Below are positions 18,946 to 60,653 of a DNA stretch of 64,000 bases, piece by piece. Below the pieces are notes generated by a model. It saw only the letters and a list, made by a program, of their open reading frames with translations, had not been told where the DNA came from and searched no databases. Position numbers and translations under genes: made by a program. Origin of the DNA: Paramacrobiotus metropolitanus. Lineage: Eukaryota; Tardigrada; Eutardigrada; Parachela; Macrobiotidae. The stretch covers positions 2,542,001 through 2,606,000 of the forward strand of contig NW_026570225.1 of the NCBI RefSeq assembly GCF_019649055.1, written 5' to 3'. The stretch's first letter is position 1. Every line of letters starts with the position of its first letter.

Positions 18946-19856
18946 TTAAGCCGATTGAACTGTTCCTCGATCTTGTTCATCTTTAGACACGTTACTTGTT
19001 CCCTGCGTTCTGACCACAGCGTCATCGGTGGCTGACGCTTTTATTTCCTGGCTGGCGTTCACTTCCGCCTGGCCACTTCCGTTGGCGGTTGTACTAATGG
19101 TCGCGGCGTTCAGGCCGAACCCATGGAACACTCCGGAACCGCTGACCTATACCGACAAAACGAAATTCTCTGCACTTCCTAATTGCGAAGTTATGATTGG
19201 ATTACCGAAAACACAACGACGAAATTTCGTCGATATCATGTACTCTCATTGTAATTGCAGTTGTATCGTTAGTTGTAACTTGGCTACTACTATTCTTAAA
19301 ATTAGTAGGCAGTACATACCACAACGTTAGCGTTATCCGTAGTTCCCGATAGCGTGATAGTGCCACTGTTGGCCAGTACGGCGTTGATATTCTTACTGGT
19401 CACGGAACCGATCATGCTGGCCGACTGCGAAACCACCACAACCACGGTACTAGCTTCGATATTGGCAATCACTTGAGCCGATCCACTAACCACGATGCGG
19501 AACACTTGCCCTTTCATATTACTACGGGACGTAATCTGAGCCGGACCGGCCGCCACCAAATTTATAATGGATTTAGTAGTTACGGCGATTTGAAGAATCC
19601 CAGTGAACTTTGTGTCCCAGTTGTTAAAGCGGATTTTCAGGGTGCCATTCTCCACGACCGTCTCCACGGCCTTGATGAAATCCTTGTTGGAACCGGATAA
19701 CACGATGGAATCTTTATCGCCGATATCCACATTGATAGCGAATGGTCCATCGACGGCGATGCCGTTAAACGGTTCTTCTACTTGCCGCGTCTCTGAAAAC
19801 TGGCCGTATCCGGAAGCAAACAGTCCACACAAAACCAACACGACATATCCCGACAT
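18946..19856 (-). CDS. Secreted DUF2807/GIN-like beta protein, copy 1
   Basis: Two exons (19856-19320 and 19146-18946) give a 245-residue protein. A signal peptide (MSGYVVLVLCGLFASGYG) is followed by a repetitive beta-rich body opening with FNGIAVDGPFAINVDIG and ENGTLKIRF, the signature layout of DUF2807 (head GIN domain). That family is best known as surface or secreted proteins in bacteria; its function is unknown. The body is Ser/Thr/Val-rich with alternating hydrophobic residues, as expected of a stacked beta solenoid. The tail matches copy 3 (33984-34977): both contain a TDNAN or ADNAN phrase, then FHG and a near-terminal (D/K)RGT or DKGT. Intron positions differ between the two. It lacks a membrane anchor, so I expect it to be extracellular. 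Confidence 0.78.
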
Positions 19857-30267: not shown

Positions 30268-31525
30268 TATTTGATGATGGTGGTATTTTTGAAGATTGGC
30301 TTTTTATATCTCCCGCATTCGTGACGTTTCCCCAAGGATTTCCATTCTGACCATTTCATTTCAGCTTTTGTTCGATGCCGCTTTACTGAATGAAGGTCCG
30401 TTTGGGACCGGTTGTCCATTTTTTGGGATTGTAATTTGGTGGTTGGGCGAATATTACAGTAAATTAATTATATTGTTCAGATGTTAAGGTCAGATGACCG
30501 TTACGTTGTGGTCAGATGTTTTTGTTAACTACGATAAAGTTCCCTTTCACAGAATGCCTTATTTAGATGTTGACCTGGTAATTGTAACATCGGCTTGAGT
30601 ACAACTTTGTACTTGGTTTTATTTATTACGTTTGGATTTTATATGTGCGAATGACCGTGTATTTGCAACAAAATTTGCGATGACGAATTTTTTGGTTGGG
30701 AATGAAAACATTTTAAAAGATAATATGTTAAGACAGCAGAAATGTAGGATGAAAAGCCATAAATCAGTTCGGAAGGAATCAAGCCCTCATGGCTTTTTGA
30801 TTTTTAAACACAAGAAAAGGCTCCCTTTGTAAGAGATGTTTCTGCATAAGGAAGTACTTGCACATACGGAAGTTTCGGAGCATGATGAGCGCATTGGTTT
30901 CTGGCACCCTAGTTCTAGCCATCATGTACTTGTTCGGCCAGGACCGAGCAAAAATTTTTTTACTGTATTCGGCAAAAGTAGATTGTAATATTGCAGAAAA
31001 AAATTGATTGCAAAAAATTTATACTGTAATTCGGCAAAATTGTCCAATCAATAGCCTTACGCAATGCATCGTAATCTGTGTTCAGCAAAATTAATTTATA
31101 ACTACGATATTACAGTATCTCGTATTACAGTATCTCATTGGTCCACAAGCAGAAGGTTTGCAATCACAACGAGATACTCTCTGGCATTTAAACCAAATTT
31201 GTTGACGGTGCAGAGTAATTTGCAGATAGTTTTTTTTATCTGCATGTTTTGTACGAGTATAAAATATCCAGGGCTGAGAAAGCGGGAAGAAACGAATAAG
31301 AATTATCGTCACGCTAAAAACAGCAAGCCAGCTTCTAGATTTCGTATGAGTTCCGTAAATAATTCACAGTGCTTCGGTTCACGTGCGTACGAACAGAAAC
31401 GTAAAATTTTGCATACGGGACAACTTATTTTAAAATATTTTTAAATTAACAGTTAGCAAAGAAACGCCCCTTATATTTACGTGAGGGCGTTTCACCACCG
31501 CAGCATATCCGTATCGAGAAGGTCA
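30268..31525. other. Intergenic between two converging genes
   Basis: This contains the 3' flank of the BFR1-like gene and of DUF2807 copy 2. It is AT-rich, with a local direct repeat of ATTACAGTATCTC (about 31108-31136). No supported exon or RNA gene is visible. Confidence 0.4.
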
Positions 31526-32569
31526 CTAATTACTGAACTCTTCGTGTCCAGTTTGCAGCAGCCTTAATGTCTTTTCCAGCGCATCAATCGCGGCGGCCGT
31601 ATCATCAAACTGCAACGCTCCCACGGCAAATTTCATATTTTTCTGCGCCCGGGCAATATCATCTGCCGTTAACTTGACCTTCGCCGCGGGACTGGCGTTC
31701 TTTACCGTCTTCCGATCCACACAATCGGGCAGTCGTGCCGTCGTGGCTTTGGTCGTGGGCGGTCGGGTCGTGGGTGGCTTCTCGGTCGGGTACGTGTGCC
31801 GGTATGCACTGGCGTTGGCGTTGTCGATCTTGGCACGACCATAGGCGTCTTTCGTGGCTACGCCCAGTCCCGTGGTATTGGCCACCCCCTGGTCGTACAC
31901 GGCGACTTGGATTTGCTGTTTGGAATTGAATTCGCCGCGGCCATACCCGCGAATGGTCCCGGTCACAATCCCACCGTGCAGTTTCGACCCGTAAAACACC
32001 GCGTCCTGACTGATCTCCACGGTCTCCACATCGGCAATGCCGCTGGCGTTGAATTTACTGTTCCCGTACAGTACCGCTTGGAAGACCGTGGCACGGAAAT
32101 CACTCCTAATCGTCGCCCTATCCGTCATCCGCACCTGGAACGTGACGGTGTCCACATCCACGGCCACCGAGGAATTCTCATTGGCCAGGATACGGAAGCT
32201 GCCGGTTGCCACGCGTTTGGTCACGCTGGCGCGTGTCACGCCGCCGGTGTTGAAATTGTCGATGGACGGTGTAAGAGCGGTGATTTTGATCAAGGGGCCT
32301 TTGTAGTTGGCCGTCGTCTCACCGGTTAGACGGATTTTCAGGGTTTTGTACCGGTCGATGGTGGTGTTGAGAGATTTCAGAATCTGACTGTCGCCTTCGA
32401 TTTTCAGGGAGGATTTGTTGGCCAAACTGACGCTGATATCGAAGGGACCGTATGCATTGATGCCGGTAAACTCCTCCAAATTGCGTGTTTCTGAAGCCGC
32501 TCCGACGCATTTTGTACCGTATATTCCAATTAGGGCTAAAGTGAATAGCCCACAAAATAAGGAAGGCAT
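31526..32569 (-). CDS. Secreted DUF2807-like protein fused to a VTA1-like C-terminal helix pair, copy 2
   Basis: A single uninterrupted frame of 347 residues, unlike its spliced relatives. Residues 1-24 are a signal peptide (MPSLFCGLFTLALIGIYGTK start). Residues about 30-255 form a beta-rich body opening with FTGINAYGPFDISVSLANKS and KTLKIRL, the same layout as copies 1 and 3. A Thr/Pro-rich linker (about 259-280) then leads to a Cys/Lys-rich connector. The last 48 residues (31672-31529) are helical: DDIARAQKNMKFAVGALQFD, then a second amphipathic helix ending in LRLLQTG. This closely resembles the C-terminal domain of VTA1/LIP5, which dimerises and binds Vps4 in the ESCRT pathway. A VTA1-type cytosolic module on a secreted protein is unexpected. 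The coding frame is clean and GC-rich compared with its flanks. Confidence 0.75.
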   Translation of the reverse strand: MPSLFCGLFTLALIGIYGTKCVGAASETRNLEEFTGINAYGPFDISVSLANKSSLKIEGDSQILKSLNTTIDRYKTLKIRLTGETTANYKGPLIKITALTPSIDNFNTGGVTRASVTKRVATGSFRILANENSSVAVDVDTVTFQVRMTDRATIRSDFRATVFQAVLYGNSKFNASGIADVETVEISQDAVFYGSKLHGGIVTGTIRGYGRGEFNSKQQIQVAVYDQGVANTTGLGVATKDAYGRAKIDNANASAYRHTYPTEKPPTTRPPTTKATTARLPDCVDRKTVKNASPAAKVKLTADDIARAQKNMKFAVGALQFDDTAAAIDALEKTLRLLQTGHEEFSN

Positions 32570-33983: not shown

Positions 33984-34977
33984 ATGTGGAAATTAAACAT
34001 TTTAGTTCTAGCTTGTATTTGTGGCTATTTGTCGGACGTGTGCAATGGAGCACAGAAAACTGTGCACCGGAAGCTAAAGAAGACCTTCTCGGGTGTTTTG
34101 GTGGATGGTCCGTTCGTGGTCACGGTGGTCTTCGGTGAAGAGGAAGAAGTGATGCTGTCTGGCCAGGACACTGTCATCCAGTCTGTGCAGACGCGCGTCA
34201 GTCCCGAAGGCACGTTGACAATTCGTTTCAAGCCGGACACCAACATCAATGACCCGGGCAACATCCAGATCCAAGTTACGGCCAAGGCGGTCACCAGTCT
34301 CGTAGCGTCCAGTAATTCCCAGCTGATAACGCAATCAGACTTCACCGCCAAAAATAACTTAGCCGTGGCTAGTTACGGCTCATCGCAAATTATTATGCAA
34401 GGTATTGTCGATCGAAGGTTTGCTTTGCCGGGTCCGTTATCTGTTCTGTTTCCATCCGGAATTTGTTCAGTTCTGCCAAATGTTGTCGCTATTACTTATT
34501 TTCGCAATTTTCTTGTTTTTTCAAAAAAACCCACCAACCATTTGTTCGAAATTGTTTTACTTGGAATCAAAATGATATGTACAAAGATTTTTTCCAGCAT
34601 TTTTGTCATTTTTGGTTTCAGGAACGGTAACAACCAGTTCATTTAGCGCGGTTGTTTCAACTTCCTCCAGTCTGGTGGCAGCTGTAGCAGTTGAAACAGC
34701 CAATGTCGTGGCCAGTGGGACCAGCGGAGTGACCTTGACTGGGACCGCGGACAATGCCAACATCGCCATTTCCGACAGTTCCCAGTTTCACGGCGGTCAG
34801 TTGGTCGTTCAGTTTCTGAGTGCCAGTGTTTCGGGCAAAGCCAAGGCGGAATTAAACAGCATGAAGGAGCTGAAGGTGTCGGTAAGTCAGAGCGGGATGG
34901 CCATTACCAGCGGCTCGGCTAAGGTGGTCAAGGAAATCAAGGATAAAGGGACCATTCTGCATCAAGATCTGGCTTAA
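33984..34977 (+). CDS. Secreted DUF2807/GIN-like beta protein, copy 3
   Basis: Two exons (33984-34401 and 34622-34977) give about 257 residues. A signal peptide (MWKLNILVLACICGYLSD, cleaved near CNGA) precedes a body opening with FSGVLVDGPFVVTVVFG and PEGTLTIRF, as in copy 1. The C-terminal half (FSAVVSTSSSLVAAVAVE, ADNANIAISDSSQFHGG, LKVSVSQSGMAITSG) aligns by eye with copy 1 along its whole length. The intron falls near the middle, not at the copy 1 position, so introns were gained or lost after duplication. Copies 2 and 3 are head to head, 1.4 kb apart. No transmembrane segment follows the signal peptide. The biochemical role of the family is unknown. Confidence 0.77.
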
Positions 34978-54538: not shown

Positions 54539-56589
54539 CTAAAACAGATACATCTGATCGTAAATTGTAGCTTTGGAAAACATAGGATTCCAGTTGTATA
54601 TCGAATATTTGTCCTCCTCCTCTTGGTTCTGAAATCGTTGTTTATTCATCCTGGCTGCAATTAAATTTCTGGGATTAATATCGGCGGCAATGGTAAACTT
54701 AACAAAATTGCTTAAGGACGGATAGACTCAATCACCATCTCTTGTCAATACGATTTTGGTTGAGATACTAAAATGAAACATCGTACCTATTCGTTTTAGT
54801 AATTATTTTACGGTATAACTGCCTTACTCTGTGAAACGAAGAAATTTGCAAAATACTGTGAAGCTAAGATGGCGTGCTGGGAGTGCGAGTACGCTGATGG
54901 ATGGTGAAATTCAAAATGGGCCTTCTCGGGATGAAACTGAACTCCATAAAATGGATATTGCAGATCTACCAATAAAAATTATCCAGATAATTGGTAAAAA
55001 CGTTTAGTTACAGTATCTTTTCAGTTAAATCCAAGATTTCTAACAGGGAACAATCCTCATACCCTCTACCGCAGCTATAAAGGTCACTCCGTCTTGCGCG
55101 GTAGAATACGAAGTCGGGCGCAGTTTATCTTTTAAACCGGAAGCAGAAAAACTTGCTGGTGTAAGGCATTTCCTGTGGGAATTTGCTGTACTGCTTTCAT
55201 TGGCTAGAATATCCGTAACTTCTTTTGATGCCGGTGAAAACATTCTGGATAATTTGTAACCTACATACAAAGGCCTTCACAATTACCTCGTTCGAGAGTA
55301 GTACTAGAGACGTTCGAGAGTAGGACTTACTTCTATATTTTTGATTTTCGCTTTATAACGTTATAACGTTGATGAATACAAACAACCGCGTGAGATCATA
55401 TAATTATAGGATGATAAATTCAAAGTATCTGTTTTGCTTAAGCTTTTCAAAATTATCTCTGAAAGATGAATATGTACGTAGTTATATTGATCGTGAGGAA
55501 AGCTTTACACGGTCTGGCACTGTGTAACAATTACCAGTTACCGCTATAAAAAGAGTGTGTCCGGCAATAGCATGCGCATGTCATACGACGTCCGTAACAT
55601 AATAAGTTTTGCTATCCCTGTAATCGTATTGATATGAATATTGCAAAAACTAACCACTCGGGAACTGTAGTGGAAGACTAACGTTCTCAGCATTGCACGA
55701 TGTCAAAAAGCATCCATCAGCGGTTAGCACCGTAAGTAGCTCATATCCTAGGCAAGTCCCCCAGATCGGGAAATAATTTCCTTTGTCATTCATCTGCAGC
55801 ACACAAGCAACAAGCAGTGTGCAACTGAGTTTTTTTATTGCAGGTAATAGTTCTGACTTTTAAAAAAATATTGTAACTACCTCTTTCGCCATCGCGTATA
55901 GTAATTTTCCAGTTTGTGCGTAGCCGCTATCCGTTAACGAAACACCTCCTCCTGGGAACAGCACCCTTAAATAACACAAAAATTATCACTGTTATTACCG
56001 GTTTCTGTTTTATGATACATATATTGCTGCGATGCGTAAGTACAATATGCTCATTGTCAGTTCCGCAGTTTCCGAAATTACCTAATTTTTCGAGTATGTA
56101 CCGTTAATTGAAAAATCCCCGCTAATATAAAATTCTGACAGAAAACTTCCAATCAAATTTTGGAATTCCTTACCCGTTTATTTTTGACATAAGAGCGGTG
56201 TAATATTCTGGCGGTTGACTGAGTCTGAAATTATATTATAATTTAGCACAGATCATTTACACCGTGCCACTGATTCTTGATCATATGATTAATATCTAAT
56301 TTATCGATAAACCGAAATCATCAGGGTATCCAGTGTGAAACTGTCCTTTGTTTTCCCTACGTTATAATGGCTTTATAAAAAAACAATGTCTTAATCGAAA
56401 GGGTTGTGTCTGTATTTACAGCACTGGTACCACACGGGCCCCTGCACTTTCGATCCATTTCACATATGAAGCGGCAATGAAGGATGGCGTCGTTCTCGTG
56501 GACGTGGTGTATGTGCCGTATATTGATCGCAGTTTTTTGGCGTTGATATCCTGAGATAAAATTCCTACCCAGTCACAGACACAAGCCAT
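54539..56589 (-). CDS. GGH: Gamma-glutamyl hydrolase (folylpolyglutamate hydrolase)
   Basis: This class I glutamine-amidotransferase-fold peptidase trims polyglutamate tails from folates. Seven exons join in frame (56589-56420, 56224-56174, 55965-55881, 55793-55655, 55260-55063, 54965-54828, 54654-54539), giving 298 residues. Family stretches match in order: WVGILSQDI, YVKWIESAGARVVPV, ALMSKINGVLFPGGGVSL and FPIWGTCLGYELL (nucleophile Cys), then YPFYGVQFHPEKAHFEF (catalytic His). The end is QMYLF, as in relatives. The usual N-terminal signal peptide is missing. An acceptor-like TTTGTTTAG just before the first ATG suggests an unseen upstream exon that might supply it. The first two exons lie inside copy 1 of the tandem duplication at 55981-60653. 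Confidence 0.92.
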
Positions 56590-59500
56590 TAACTAAACAA
56601 ATCTACTTCCTTACGATAAACTGCGCCACTTATGCTAGAGACAAAATAAAAGTAGATGTAAACAAAGACCGACCAATAATTGGTTTATCATTCCGACCAT
56701 GGTCATCTGGGCAATCACGTAGCAATTTAGAAAGCAGCGGCTTCTCTAAAAATAAATTGTATACGTCACAAAAACACGGAAGAAAAATAATTTGTGAATT
56801 ATATAGAAGTCTATATATAAGGCAACGCCGCTTCCGTACTCGGAACCACGGAAGGAGCAGCAGCGCTAAACGAACTATTTTTGTTGCGCTAAGGAGTGTT
56901 TTTAATTCAATTGTATCCGTGTTCTATGAAACCAAGAAACTTTTCAAAATTTTGAGTTTAGAAATTAATGTACGAGTAATAAATACGAGTACGAAGTATA
57001 CTTTTGAGTGCACAACTCACAGCAATTGCATTGTACACTTATCTAATCGTAAGCTCAAAGGCGCATTTGCATGTATCTCGTATGTGTGGCCGTGCTGGAG
57101 AGATTTCTGACATGCAGGATCGACAGAAATATTATATGCAATTGTTCTTAAATATCTGGTGAATATATCTTCAATTTCTGGTGAATATATATATATGTTG
57201 TACAGATATACGTAATAACGTATCTATATAATCATAATTATACGTTCAGCAATTTCTTTATTGTATGGCTAACTACAGGTTTATAGTTCGAAAAGAAAAA
57301 ACGAGATCGAAAAATTGATCAATAGAGGTACTCGTATACATAAATGAGTCTTTTCGAATTATACGATTTGAATTGTTTTCATAGAGACGATTGGTAATAT
57401 TGTACAATATTACCACTAATATGCCTTACTTCTTACAGTTATTCGTTCGTTACATGTAACGCATAATTAACCGCAGTACTTATGGTCTTACGGAGATCGT
57501 CGAGATCAGGGATCAAGCTGGTTCCCACGAAAACGTCATGGAAATGAACCAGGATCATAAAACACTCAGACAAGATACTCTGCGAAATATCTGCATAGTA
57601 CTGGTGTTACATAGAAGTAGATAAAGTATAAATAATATTAATTTTGAGTATGAAGCAAGTATTTTCAGTTCTTAATGACTCAGTGTTTCTACCACGAAAA
57701 CACTATTAAGTATTACGAACTGTACTGGCGAACTGTACTGGCAAATACAGCTGCTGCTATGCCGTGGTCAGTGTGGTAGAAAATGGAAAACTGACATATT
57801 ACATTTGATGCAATATGGCACTACTGTAGCTTATCGGTTGGCTCGATCATTCAGAATCAGAGGATCCCAAACATAAATTATTACCGCGTGCGTTTGTCTA
57901 AACATACGCGCGCTAACAAAACACTACCAAAAAACTTACTCGTTAATTAAACTACTCATCTGCAATTTTAAAAGAACAAGAGAGTGCTAATATGAGTTAG
58001 TTTTTTCGGTGGTAATCGCTTTGTGAAAACACGCAAATTAGATTACGAAAATGTGCATGCAGTTAGAAAGGCTGGCCAGTTAGAAAAGCTTTTGGCTTCT
58101 GGACTTTGATTTTGCCAAATTCTTAATCGAATGGGCGATCTGCTTTGGGTCGACCTAATCGTGCAATTATGTTTATTTACAGTAATAGTAATTTATCTAT
58201 GCGCATGCGGTTGATCGAAATGATGTTTATATGTAAATATAAAATTGTCGTTTTCTGTTGCACATATACAGACCAGCTGCCGCAGAATTATCACTGTTAT
58301 TACCGGTTTCTGTTTTATGATACATATATTGCTGCGATGCGTAAGTACAATATGCTCATTGTCAGTTCCGCAGTTTCGAAATTACCTAATTTTTCGAGTA
58401 TGTACCGTTAATTGAAAAATCCCCGCTAATATAAAATTCTGACAGAAAACTTCCAATCAAATTTTGGAATTCCTTACCCGTTTATTTTTGACATAAGAGC
58501 GGTGTAATATTCTGGCGGTTGACTGAGTCTGAAATTATATTATAATTTAGCACAGATCATTTACACCGTGCCACTGATTCTTGATCATATGATTAATATC
58601 TAATTTATCGATAAACCGAAATCATCAGGGTATCCAGTGTGAAACTGTCCTTTGTTTTCCTACGTTATAATGGCGAAATCATCAGGGTATCCAGTGTGAA
58701 ACTGTCCTTTGTTTCCCTACGTATCTGGCTTTATAAAAAACAATGTCTTAATCCGAAAGGGTTGTGGCTGTATTTACAGCACTGGTACCACACGGGCCCC
58801 TGCACTTTCGATCCAGGATCACATATGAAGCGGCAATGAAGGATGGCGTCGTTCTCGTGGACGTGGTGTATGTGCCGTATATTGATCGCAGTTTTTGGTT
58901 GATATCCTGAGATAAAATTCCTACCCAGTCACAGACACAAGCCATTAACTAAACAAATCTACTTCCTTACGATAAACTGCGCCACTTATGCTAGAGACAA
59001 AATAAAAGTAGATGTAAACAAAGACCGACCAATAATTGGTTTATCATTCCGACCATGGTCATCTGGGCAATCACGTAGCAATTTAGAAAGCAGCGGCTTC
59101 TCTAAAAATAAATTGTATACGTCACAAAAACACGGAAGAAAAATAATTTGTGAATTATATAGAAGTCTATATATAAGGCAACGCCGCTTCCGTACTCGGA
59201 ACCACGGAAGGAGCAGCAGCGCTAAACGAACTATTTTTGTTGCGCTAAGGAGTGTTTTTAATTCAATTGTATCCGTGTTCTATGAAACCAAGAAACTTTT
59301 CAAAATTTTGAGTTTAGAAATTAATGTACGAGTAATAAATACGAGTACGAAGTATACTTTTTTGAGTGCACAACTCACAGCAATTGCATTGTACACTTAT
59401 CTAATCGTAAGCTCAAAGGCGCATTTGCATGTATCTCGTATGTGTGGCCGTGCTGGAGAGATTTCTGACATGCAGGATCGACAGAAATATTATATGCAAT

Positions 59501-60653
59501 TGTTCTTAAATATCTGGTGAATATATCTTCAATTTCTGGTGAATATATATATATGTTGTACAGATATACGTAATAACGTATCTATATAATCATAATTATA
59601 CGTTCAGCAATTTCTTTATTGTATGGCTAACTACAGGTTTATAGTTCGAAAAGAAAAAACGAGATCGAAAAATTGATCAATAGAGGTACTCGTATACATA
59701 AATGAGTCTTTTCGAATTATACGATTTGAATTGTTTTCATAGAGAGACGATTGGTAATATTGTACAATATTACCACTAATATGCCTTACTTCTTACAGTT
59801 ATTCGTTCGTTACATGTAACGCATAATTAACCGCAGTACTTATGGTCTTACGGAGATCGTCGAGATCAGGGATCAAGCTGGTTCCCACGAAAACGTCATG
59901 GAAATGAACCAGGATCATAAAAACACTCAGACAAGATACTCTGCGAAATATCTGCATAGTACTGGTGTTACATAGAAGTAGATAAAGTATAAATAATATT
60001 AATTTTGAGTATGAAGCAAGTATTTTCAGTTCTTAATGACTCAGTGTTTCTACCACGAAAACACTATTAAGTATTACGAACTGTACTGGCGAACTGTACT
60101 GGCAAATACAGCTGCTGCTATGCCGTGGTCAGTGTGGTAGAAAATGGAAAACTGACATATTACATTTGATGCAATATGGCACTACTGTAGCTTATCGGTT
60201 GGCTCGATCATTCAGAATCAGAGGATCCCAAACATAAATTATTACCGCGTGCGTTTGTCTAAACATACGCGCGCTAACAAAACACTACCAAAAAAACTTA
60301 CTCGTTAATTAAACTACTCATCTGCAATTTTAAAAAGAACAAGAGAGTGCTAATATGAGTTAGTTTTTTTCGGTGGTAATCGCTTTGTGAAAACACGCAA
60401 ATTAGATTACGAAAATGTGCATGCAGTTAGAAAGGCTGGCCAGTTAGAAAAGCTTTTGGCTTCTGGACTTTGATTTTGCCAAATTCTTAATCGAATGGGC
60501 GATCTGCTTTGGGTCGACCTAATCGTGCAATTATGTTTATTTACAGTAATAGTAATTTATCTATGCGCATGCGGTTGATCGAAATGATGTTTATATGTAA
60601 ATATAAAATTGTCGTTTTCTGTTGCACATATACAGACCAGCTGCCGCAGAATT
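55981..60653. repeat. 2.3-kb tandem duplication, two copies
   Basis: Copy 1 (55981-58285) and copy 2 (58286-60649, plus a terminal AATT) are nearly identical along their length and abut directly. The junction is marked by a shared AATT. Differences are mostly one-base changes in homopolymer runs. In addition there is an about 60-bp local tandem duplication in copy 2 (58615-58730, repeating CGAAATCATCAGGGTATCC) and a few small indels in the GGH exon. Each copy holds GGH exons 1-2 with the upstream 1.7 kb, but not exons 3-7. A 22-bp perfect palindrome (GGTAATATTGTACAATATTA core) occurs in both at 57393-57414 and 59753-59774. Confidence 0.9.
58476..58940 (-). pseudogene. Duplicated, broken GGH 5' end
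   Basis: This is copy 2 of GGH exons 1 and 2. Exon 1 (about 58943-58770) keeps WVGILSQDIN and FIAASYV. It has a three-base in-frame loss near 58895 and a one-base gain near 58818, where CCATTTCAC in copy 1 reads CCAGGATCAC. The gain shifts the frame inside the conserved YVKWIES stretch. Exons 3-7 are not duplicated, so this copy cannot make the enzyme by itself. Splicing from it into the intact downstream gene is possible but would carry the frameshift. Confidence 0.75.

Follow-up and report, generated by a model that had tools for sequence, protein, structure and literature searches.

One open reading frame in the Paramacrobiotus metropolitanus genome was found to join a DUF2807 (GIN-domain) body, headed by a predicted signal peptide, to a linker and a C-terminal helical hairpin that, judged by alignment and profile, derive from the ESCRT cofactor VTA1. 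The donor VTA1 gene survives intact in the same genome. The captured hairpin has most likely been kept as protein under purifying selection, and with modest confidence we lean towards a secreted protein whose hairpin dimerizes outside the cell. Feature coordinates are collected in Table 1; positions refer to the window, meaning the whole stretch of 64,000 nucleotides that was analyzed (G+C, 42.4%). The fusion gene lies on the minus strand, for which the earlier note on this DNA had given no value.

Table 1. Coordinates of the fusion gene and its parts, of the VTA1 match, and of DUF2807 relatives in the window
Feature	Position	Strand	Remarks
Fusion gene	31526..32569	-	347 aa, single open frame; ATG at 32569, TAG stop at 31526-31528
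Predicted signal peptide, ~residues 1-25	32495..32569	-	Aligned with hydrophobic N-termini of relatives
DUF2807/GIN-domain (Toastrack) beta-helix, ~residues 26-242	31844..32494	-	Pfam, model, Foldseek
Linker, residues 243-299, VTA1-derived (VTA1 residues 219-277)	31673..31843	-	Alignment, shuffles
VTA1-derived C-terminal (VSL) helical hairpin, residues 300-344	31538..31672	-	Profile, alignment, selection, structure
Pfam Vta1_C core, residues 303-339	31553-31663	-	
Vta1_C match of VTA1	G000:C5:3450077-3450187		~876 kb from the fusion gene, same contig
DUF2807 relative without tail	18946..19856	-	Two predicted exons, 19320-19856 and 18946-19146
DUF2807 relative without tail	33984..34977	+	Two predicted exons, 33984-34401 and 34622-34977

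Two domains in one open frame

Both Pfam domains lie in one continuous frame from ATG to stop, which supports the gene fusion suggested in the earlier note. The DUF2807 match, covering residues 33-188 (E 2.9e-17; 63.5 bits against a cut-off of 24.2), supported the body that had been proposed from the letters alone. For the tail, the lack of a significant profile match to Vta1_C had been named as the result that would speak against it; the search was run, and the match to PF18097 was significant (E 5.6e-10; score 39.1 bits, cut-off 26.3). An NCBIfam scan of the fusion protein returned nothing up to E 1, and the N-terminal Vta1 domain (PF04652) was absent from it in the Pfam scan, likewise up to E 1; by this missing domain, the protein is not a VTA1 orthologue.

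A Vta1_C profile search of the whole genome (169.8 Mb, 533 contigs) gave two matches, namely, the fusion gene and the real VTA1 gene, the latter with the higher score (44.1 bits). VTA1 is complete and intact (322 aa in one open frame) and contains the sole match to the Vta1 N-domain in the genome (E 1.6e-46); that domain matched the solved VTA1-homologue N-domain 2lxl (E 5.4e-61), which we take to be the human one. Thirty-four of the 45 tail residues are identical in the fusion protein and VTA1, including the tip ALQFDD, and the nucleotide differences at codon positions 1, 2, and 3 number 11, 5, and 26, respectively. By these comparisons, the tail is homologous to the C-terminal part of VTA1. 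An alignment of the coding and downstream DNA of the two genes did not extend beyond the VTA1 stop codon; past it, a short AT-rich stretch was the best match. Separately, an inverted repeat, GAAACGCCC / GGGCGTTTC, was spotted by eye at window positions 31461-31493, ~33 to 65 bases past the fusion stop; a repeat search with a minimum length of 14 did not list it.

The linker also derives from VTA1, as judged from several alignment controls. Fusion residues 243-299 aligned with VTA1 residues 219-277 with one 2-residue gap when the tail was included and with one 11-residue gap when the linkers were aligned alone. The linker alignment score was 66, whereas the maxima among 5,000 shuffles of the fusion linker and 5,000 shuffles of the VTA1 linker were 57 and 55, respectively, and the best of 2,377 control segments of 57 aa (obtained by translating the window and nine paralog loci in all six frames and dropping segments shared with the fusion gene) scored 51. 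Nucleotide identity was 42% in register, compared with 22 to 35% in 30 shifted registers. The middle piece alone (21 residues from PTEKPP) was not significant (p 0.10), and the pieces before it (none of 5,000 shuffles) and after it (p 0.0032) were. An unrelated Thr/Pro spacer and a hidden intron were both rejected on this colinear homology. The Thr/Pro linker described earlier, which holds a Thr-rich stretch, is not an independent spacer but came from VTA1 with the tail. Because the linkers are homologous and the four modeled DUF2807 relatives end about where the VTA1 homology starts, the capture appears to have taken linker and tail together (~100 codons), with the junction near residues 243-252.

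Age and origin of the captured segment

A pairwise maximum-likelihood codon model of the tail against VTA1, fitted by script (the Biopython NG86 dS was undefined), gave an omega of 0.086, a dN of ~0.17, and a dS of ~1.9, the last a rough value near saturation. Models with omega fixed at 1, 0.5, and 0.25 were worse by 30.4, 14.9, and 5.0 units of 2dlnL, respectively. If the fusion copy had drifted freely while VTA1 stayed fully constrained, an average omega near 0.5 would be expected; because this value was rejected, the tail has most likely been maintained as protein in the fusion gene too, under purifying selection. From the synonymous divergence, the fusion is old; a recent fusion or an assembly chimera was rejected on the same value. 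The captured module was retained under selection while its synonymous sites neared saturation.

The earlier note had called the gene intronless, unlike its paralogs, and had seen in this a sign of retroposition. The difference holds for the two paralogs in the window, each of which has one predicted intron (GT-AG models), but not for the relatives on contigs C43 and C30, which are without introns and open in one frame across nearly the whole DUF2807 profile. The VTA1 coding frame has no intron either. Since the feature is shared with VTA1 and with two of the body's relatives, intronlessness was rejected as evidence of retroposition. Insertion of a retrocopied VTA1 mRNA downstream of a DUF2807 gene, a proposal that concerns origin only and is compatible with any functional reading, would explain the intronless fused part, but DNA-level duplication of an intronless donor leaves an identical trace, and after so much time neither a poly(A) tract nor a target-site duplication is likely to remain; we regard this origin as unlikely. 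Accidental read-through, with a functionless tail, or the misjoining of two genes in assembly is extremely improbable, as the dS from VTA1 means that the tail is not a misassembled VTA1 piece, the omega speaks strongly against it, and the linker is homologous to, colinear with, and in frame with that of VTA1.

Here, gene fusion has clearly moved a module of a cytosolic ESCRT cofactor, together with its linker, onto a protein with a predicted signal peptide. The genome retains both donor and product, so that the capture can be read directly, along with what changed afterwards (sequons, Thr-rich stretch, and cysteine). The tail resembles the VTA1/LIP5 C-terminal (VSL) domain in its profile match, its residue identity, and its modeled helical hairpin, and differs in that a predicted signal peptide and a DUF2807 body, not a Vta1 N-domain, precede it. 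In plant callose synthases, as described in passages of PMC5683620, a Vta1-related domain is likewise fused to an unrelated protein; there, it is the N-terminal Vta1 domain on a glucan synthase, whereas here it is the C-terminal VSL domain on a protein with a predicted signal peptide. In the open-licence literature searched (titles, the starts of abstracts, and some passages), no report of a DUF2807-Vta1_C fusion was found, nor was any publication joining DUF2807 and tardigrades. Both domains, and fusion as a route, are known, and within that literature the pairing is new.

Fold and relatives of the DUF2807 body

The genome profile search gave at least 14 DUF2807 matches, 5 of which belong to the three genes in the window. 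Four relatives of the fusion gene were modeled in full, and those on contigs C92 (two), C129 (two), C54, C66, and C17 were examined as open frames. In a tree of eight body sequences, the fusion protein formed a long branch (2.92) grouped weakly (78/93) with the relative on C43 and the window gene at 19 kb, which makes any choice of closest paralog tentative. In the same tree, the animal copy L003 (G000:C30:313002-313553) grouped with the three bacterial sequences and not with the other animal copies (98/96), perhaps through a second transfer from bacteria or through a long-branch error. Another copy, L008 (G000:C17:1174025-1174594), has an in-frame TAA within its DUF2807 match and is a possible pseudogene.

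Among prokaryote genome contigs, 3 of the 23 stretches that matched the search pattern encode a relative. Two of these (L022, the one covered by the Pfam scan, and L024) end without a tail, and the third (L023) runs off its contig. In viral contigs, 11 stretches fit the pattern, and none was confirmed. The body shares its Pfam match and its beta-helix fold with the bacterial DUF2807/GIN-domain putative adhesins (3lyc, 4opw, 3ljy, and Porphyromonas gingivalis PGN_1547), and bacterial relatives likewise have a hydrophobic N-terminus; unlike them, the fusion protein is encoded in an animal genome, is very divergent, and carries a foreign C-terminal extension. One DUF2807 protein has been reported as an adhesin, according to passages of PMC10949514. 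One paper also links Toastrack to PspA, the bacterial relative of ESCRT-III; because it is the VTA1 of the animal itself that the tail matches, we regard the meeting of Toastrack and an ESCRT part in this gene as a coincidence.

The two parts of the protein were modeled best under different inputs. The single-sequence model was useless for the body (mean pLDDT, 38.3) and fair for the tail (block means of 74 to 78 over residues 301-340), which formed two helices, 302-320 and 324-346. The model built from an eight-row alignment gave a beta-helix body with pLDDT mostly >90, and the block means of its tail fell to 49 to 69. A Foldseek search with the model placed bacterial GIN-domain crystals on top (E 8.1e-12). 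The top 14 chains, which belong to 3lyc, 4opw, 3ljy, and 3jx8, had target-normalized TM-scores of 0.85 to 0.92, and sequence identity was 10 to 19% to the 21 solved chains found at an E of 0.001 or better. Vta1 chains followed at ranks 23-31 with a probability of 1.00 and an rmsd of 0.5 to 0.7, at E values (0.49 to 1.2) that are not significant, the tail being short. By phmmer, the whole fusion protein matched no DUF2807 chain in the PDB up to E 1, and its tail matched at E 0.061 only; the 19-kb window paralog matched solved DUF2807 chains (3lyc, E 9.3e-10).

When the tail model was compared by VIA-align (998 chains aligned), four Vta1 entries took ranks 1-4 (Z 7.5 to 6.8), followed by DnaK structures, none above Z 5.5. 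The tail superposed on the yeast VSL domain with rmsd values of 1.2 over 42 residues (2rkl_D) and 0.6 over 41 (6oo2_H) at ranks 1-2, and the other Vta1 entries superposed worse (5xmk_G, 4.4 A over 51 residues; 5uie_K, 3.6 A over 47). A Z of ~7 to 7.5 can be reached by chance for a helical hairpin, so that it is weak alone and consistent alongside the sequence evidence.

Export, dimerization, and Vps4 binding

The signal-peptide-like N-terminus noted earlier was supported by a hydrophobic stretch (best 12-mer mean, 2.4) that aligned with the N-termini of the four modeled paralogs and two bacterial relatives (L022 and L023); the cleavage site was placed by eye, and the boundary is approximate. 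The first methionine after the start is residue 148, in the middle of the body. The fusion protein has seven N-glycosylation sequons (N-X-S/T) versus none in VTA1, a modest excess over the shuffle mean of 3.2 for the predicted mature chain (p 0.024), and two of the seven (N252 and N291) lie inside the captured linker; the four modeled paralogs have 2, 4, 4, and 0. The sole cysteine of the predicted mature chain, Cys283, is in the linker ahead of the hairpin, and the cysteines of VTA1 are at residues 10 and 155 only. Such sequons and such a cysteine are what a segment transferred to the secretory pathway would be expected to acquire, each being a small piece of evidence.

Since Vps4 is cytosolic and the hydrophobic N-terminus aligns with those of relatives, the hairpin most likely pairs secreted chains. 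An intronless VTA1 would have donated a 3' copy, comprising the linker and the VSL hairpin, to the end of a gene from the DUF2807 family, whose members have predicted signal peptides, and the protein would still enter the secretory pathway, as that family appears to. The VSL domain of VTA1 both dimerizes and binds Vps4, according to passages of PMC5520056 and PMC5413351; the hairpin would keep its VTA1 role minus Vps4 binding, pairing two chains in a four-helix bundle. The product would be a secreted, N-glycosylated dimer in which a Pro/Thr stalk carries the adhesin-like beta-helix heads. A disulfide between the two Cys283 residues, next to the bundle, might lock the pair, and the dimer would gain avidity for its ligand.

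Several observations count against the extracellular dimer. The yeast Vps4-contact positions named in PMC5520056 and PMC5413351 keep their chemistry in the fusion protein (Y303 to F314, Y310 to F321, E311 to D322, and D312 to D323), which an extracellular module would not need. The fusion tail matches the yeast sequence at 17 of 43 positions, as does the VTA1 tail, and by this count it is no more eroded, although it has the lower Pfam score of the two. Furthermore, the sequon excess is modest, one modeled paralog has none, and bacterial DUF2807 proteins have crystallized as dimers, a trimer, and a tetramer, all without such a tail (passages of PMC10949514). The model-based support, that is, the top VIA-align Z, the 3.6- and 4.4-A superpositions, and the Foldseek E values for Vta1, would also have to be counted as weak.

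The same sequence evidence would fit a secreted protein whose hairpin is a site for another extracellular partner or a stabilizing cap, not a dimerizer. The 11 of 45 tail positions that differ from VTA1 point in this direction, but in the model the tail still folds like a module known to dimerize, and we consider this reading rather unlikely. Less probable still is that some or all of the protein stays cytosolic, with a tail that still binds Vps4 and makes the protein a regulator or decoy lacking the ESCRT-III-binding N-domain of VTA1. The retained contact chemistry, the tip shared with VTA1, the purifying selection on the tail, and the three Vps4_C matches in the genome would agree with such a role; against it stand the N-terminus aligned with the DUF2807 family, the two sequons in a linker that has none in VTA1, and a next methionine that falls only in mid-body. 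A combination of two fates, in which the protein is normally exported as an adhesin-like dimer and the precursor left in the cytosol after failed export (e.g., under stress) binds Vps4 and modulates ESCRT-III disassembly, would amount to a switch, gated by the signal peptide, from secretion to membrane repair, and it is a very unlikely proposal.

If the tail dimerizes outside the cell, as in the secreted dimer that we prefer, the VSL hairpin would be a portable dimerization device that works without Vps4; continued Vps4 binding would instead make the fusion protein a new kind of regulator. Two of the Vps4_C matches have identical scores and lie on opposite strands 28 kb apart (G000:C140:237823-238005 on the plus strand and 265675-265857 on the minus strand), a possible inverted duplication of VPS4. 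Elsewhere in the window, positions 55981-58289 and 58286-60653 form a near-identical direct repeat (~2.0 kb at 98.9% and 0.39 kb at 99.5% identity), which would be either a recent tandem duplication or an assembly duplication.
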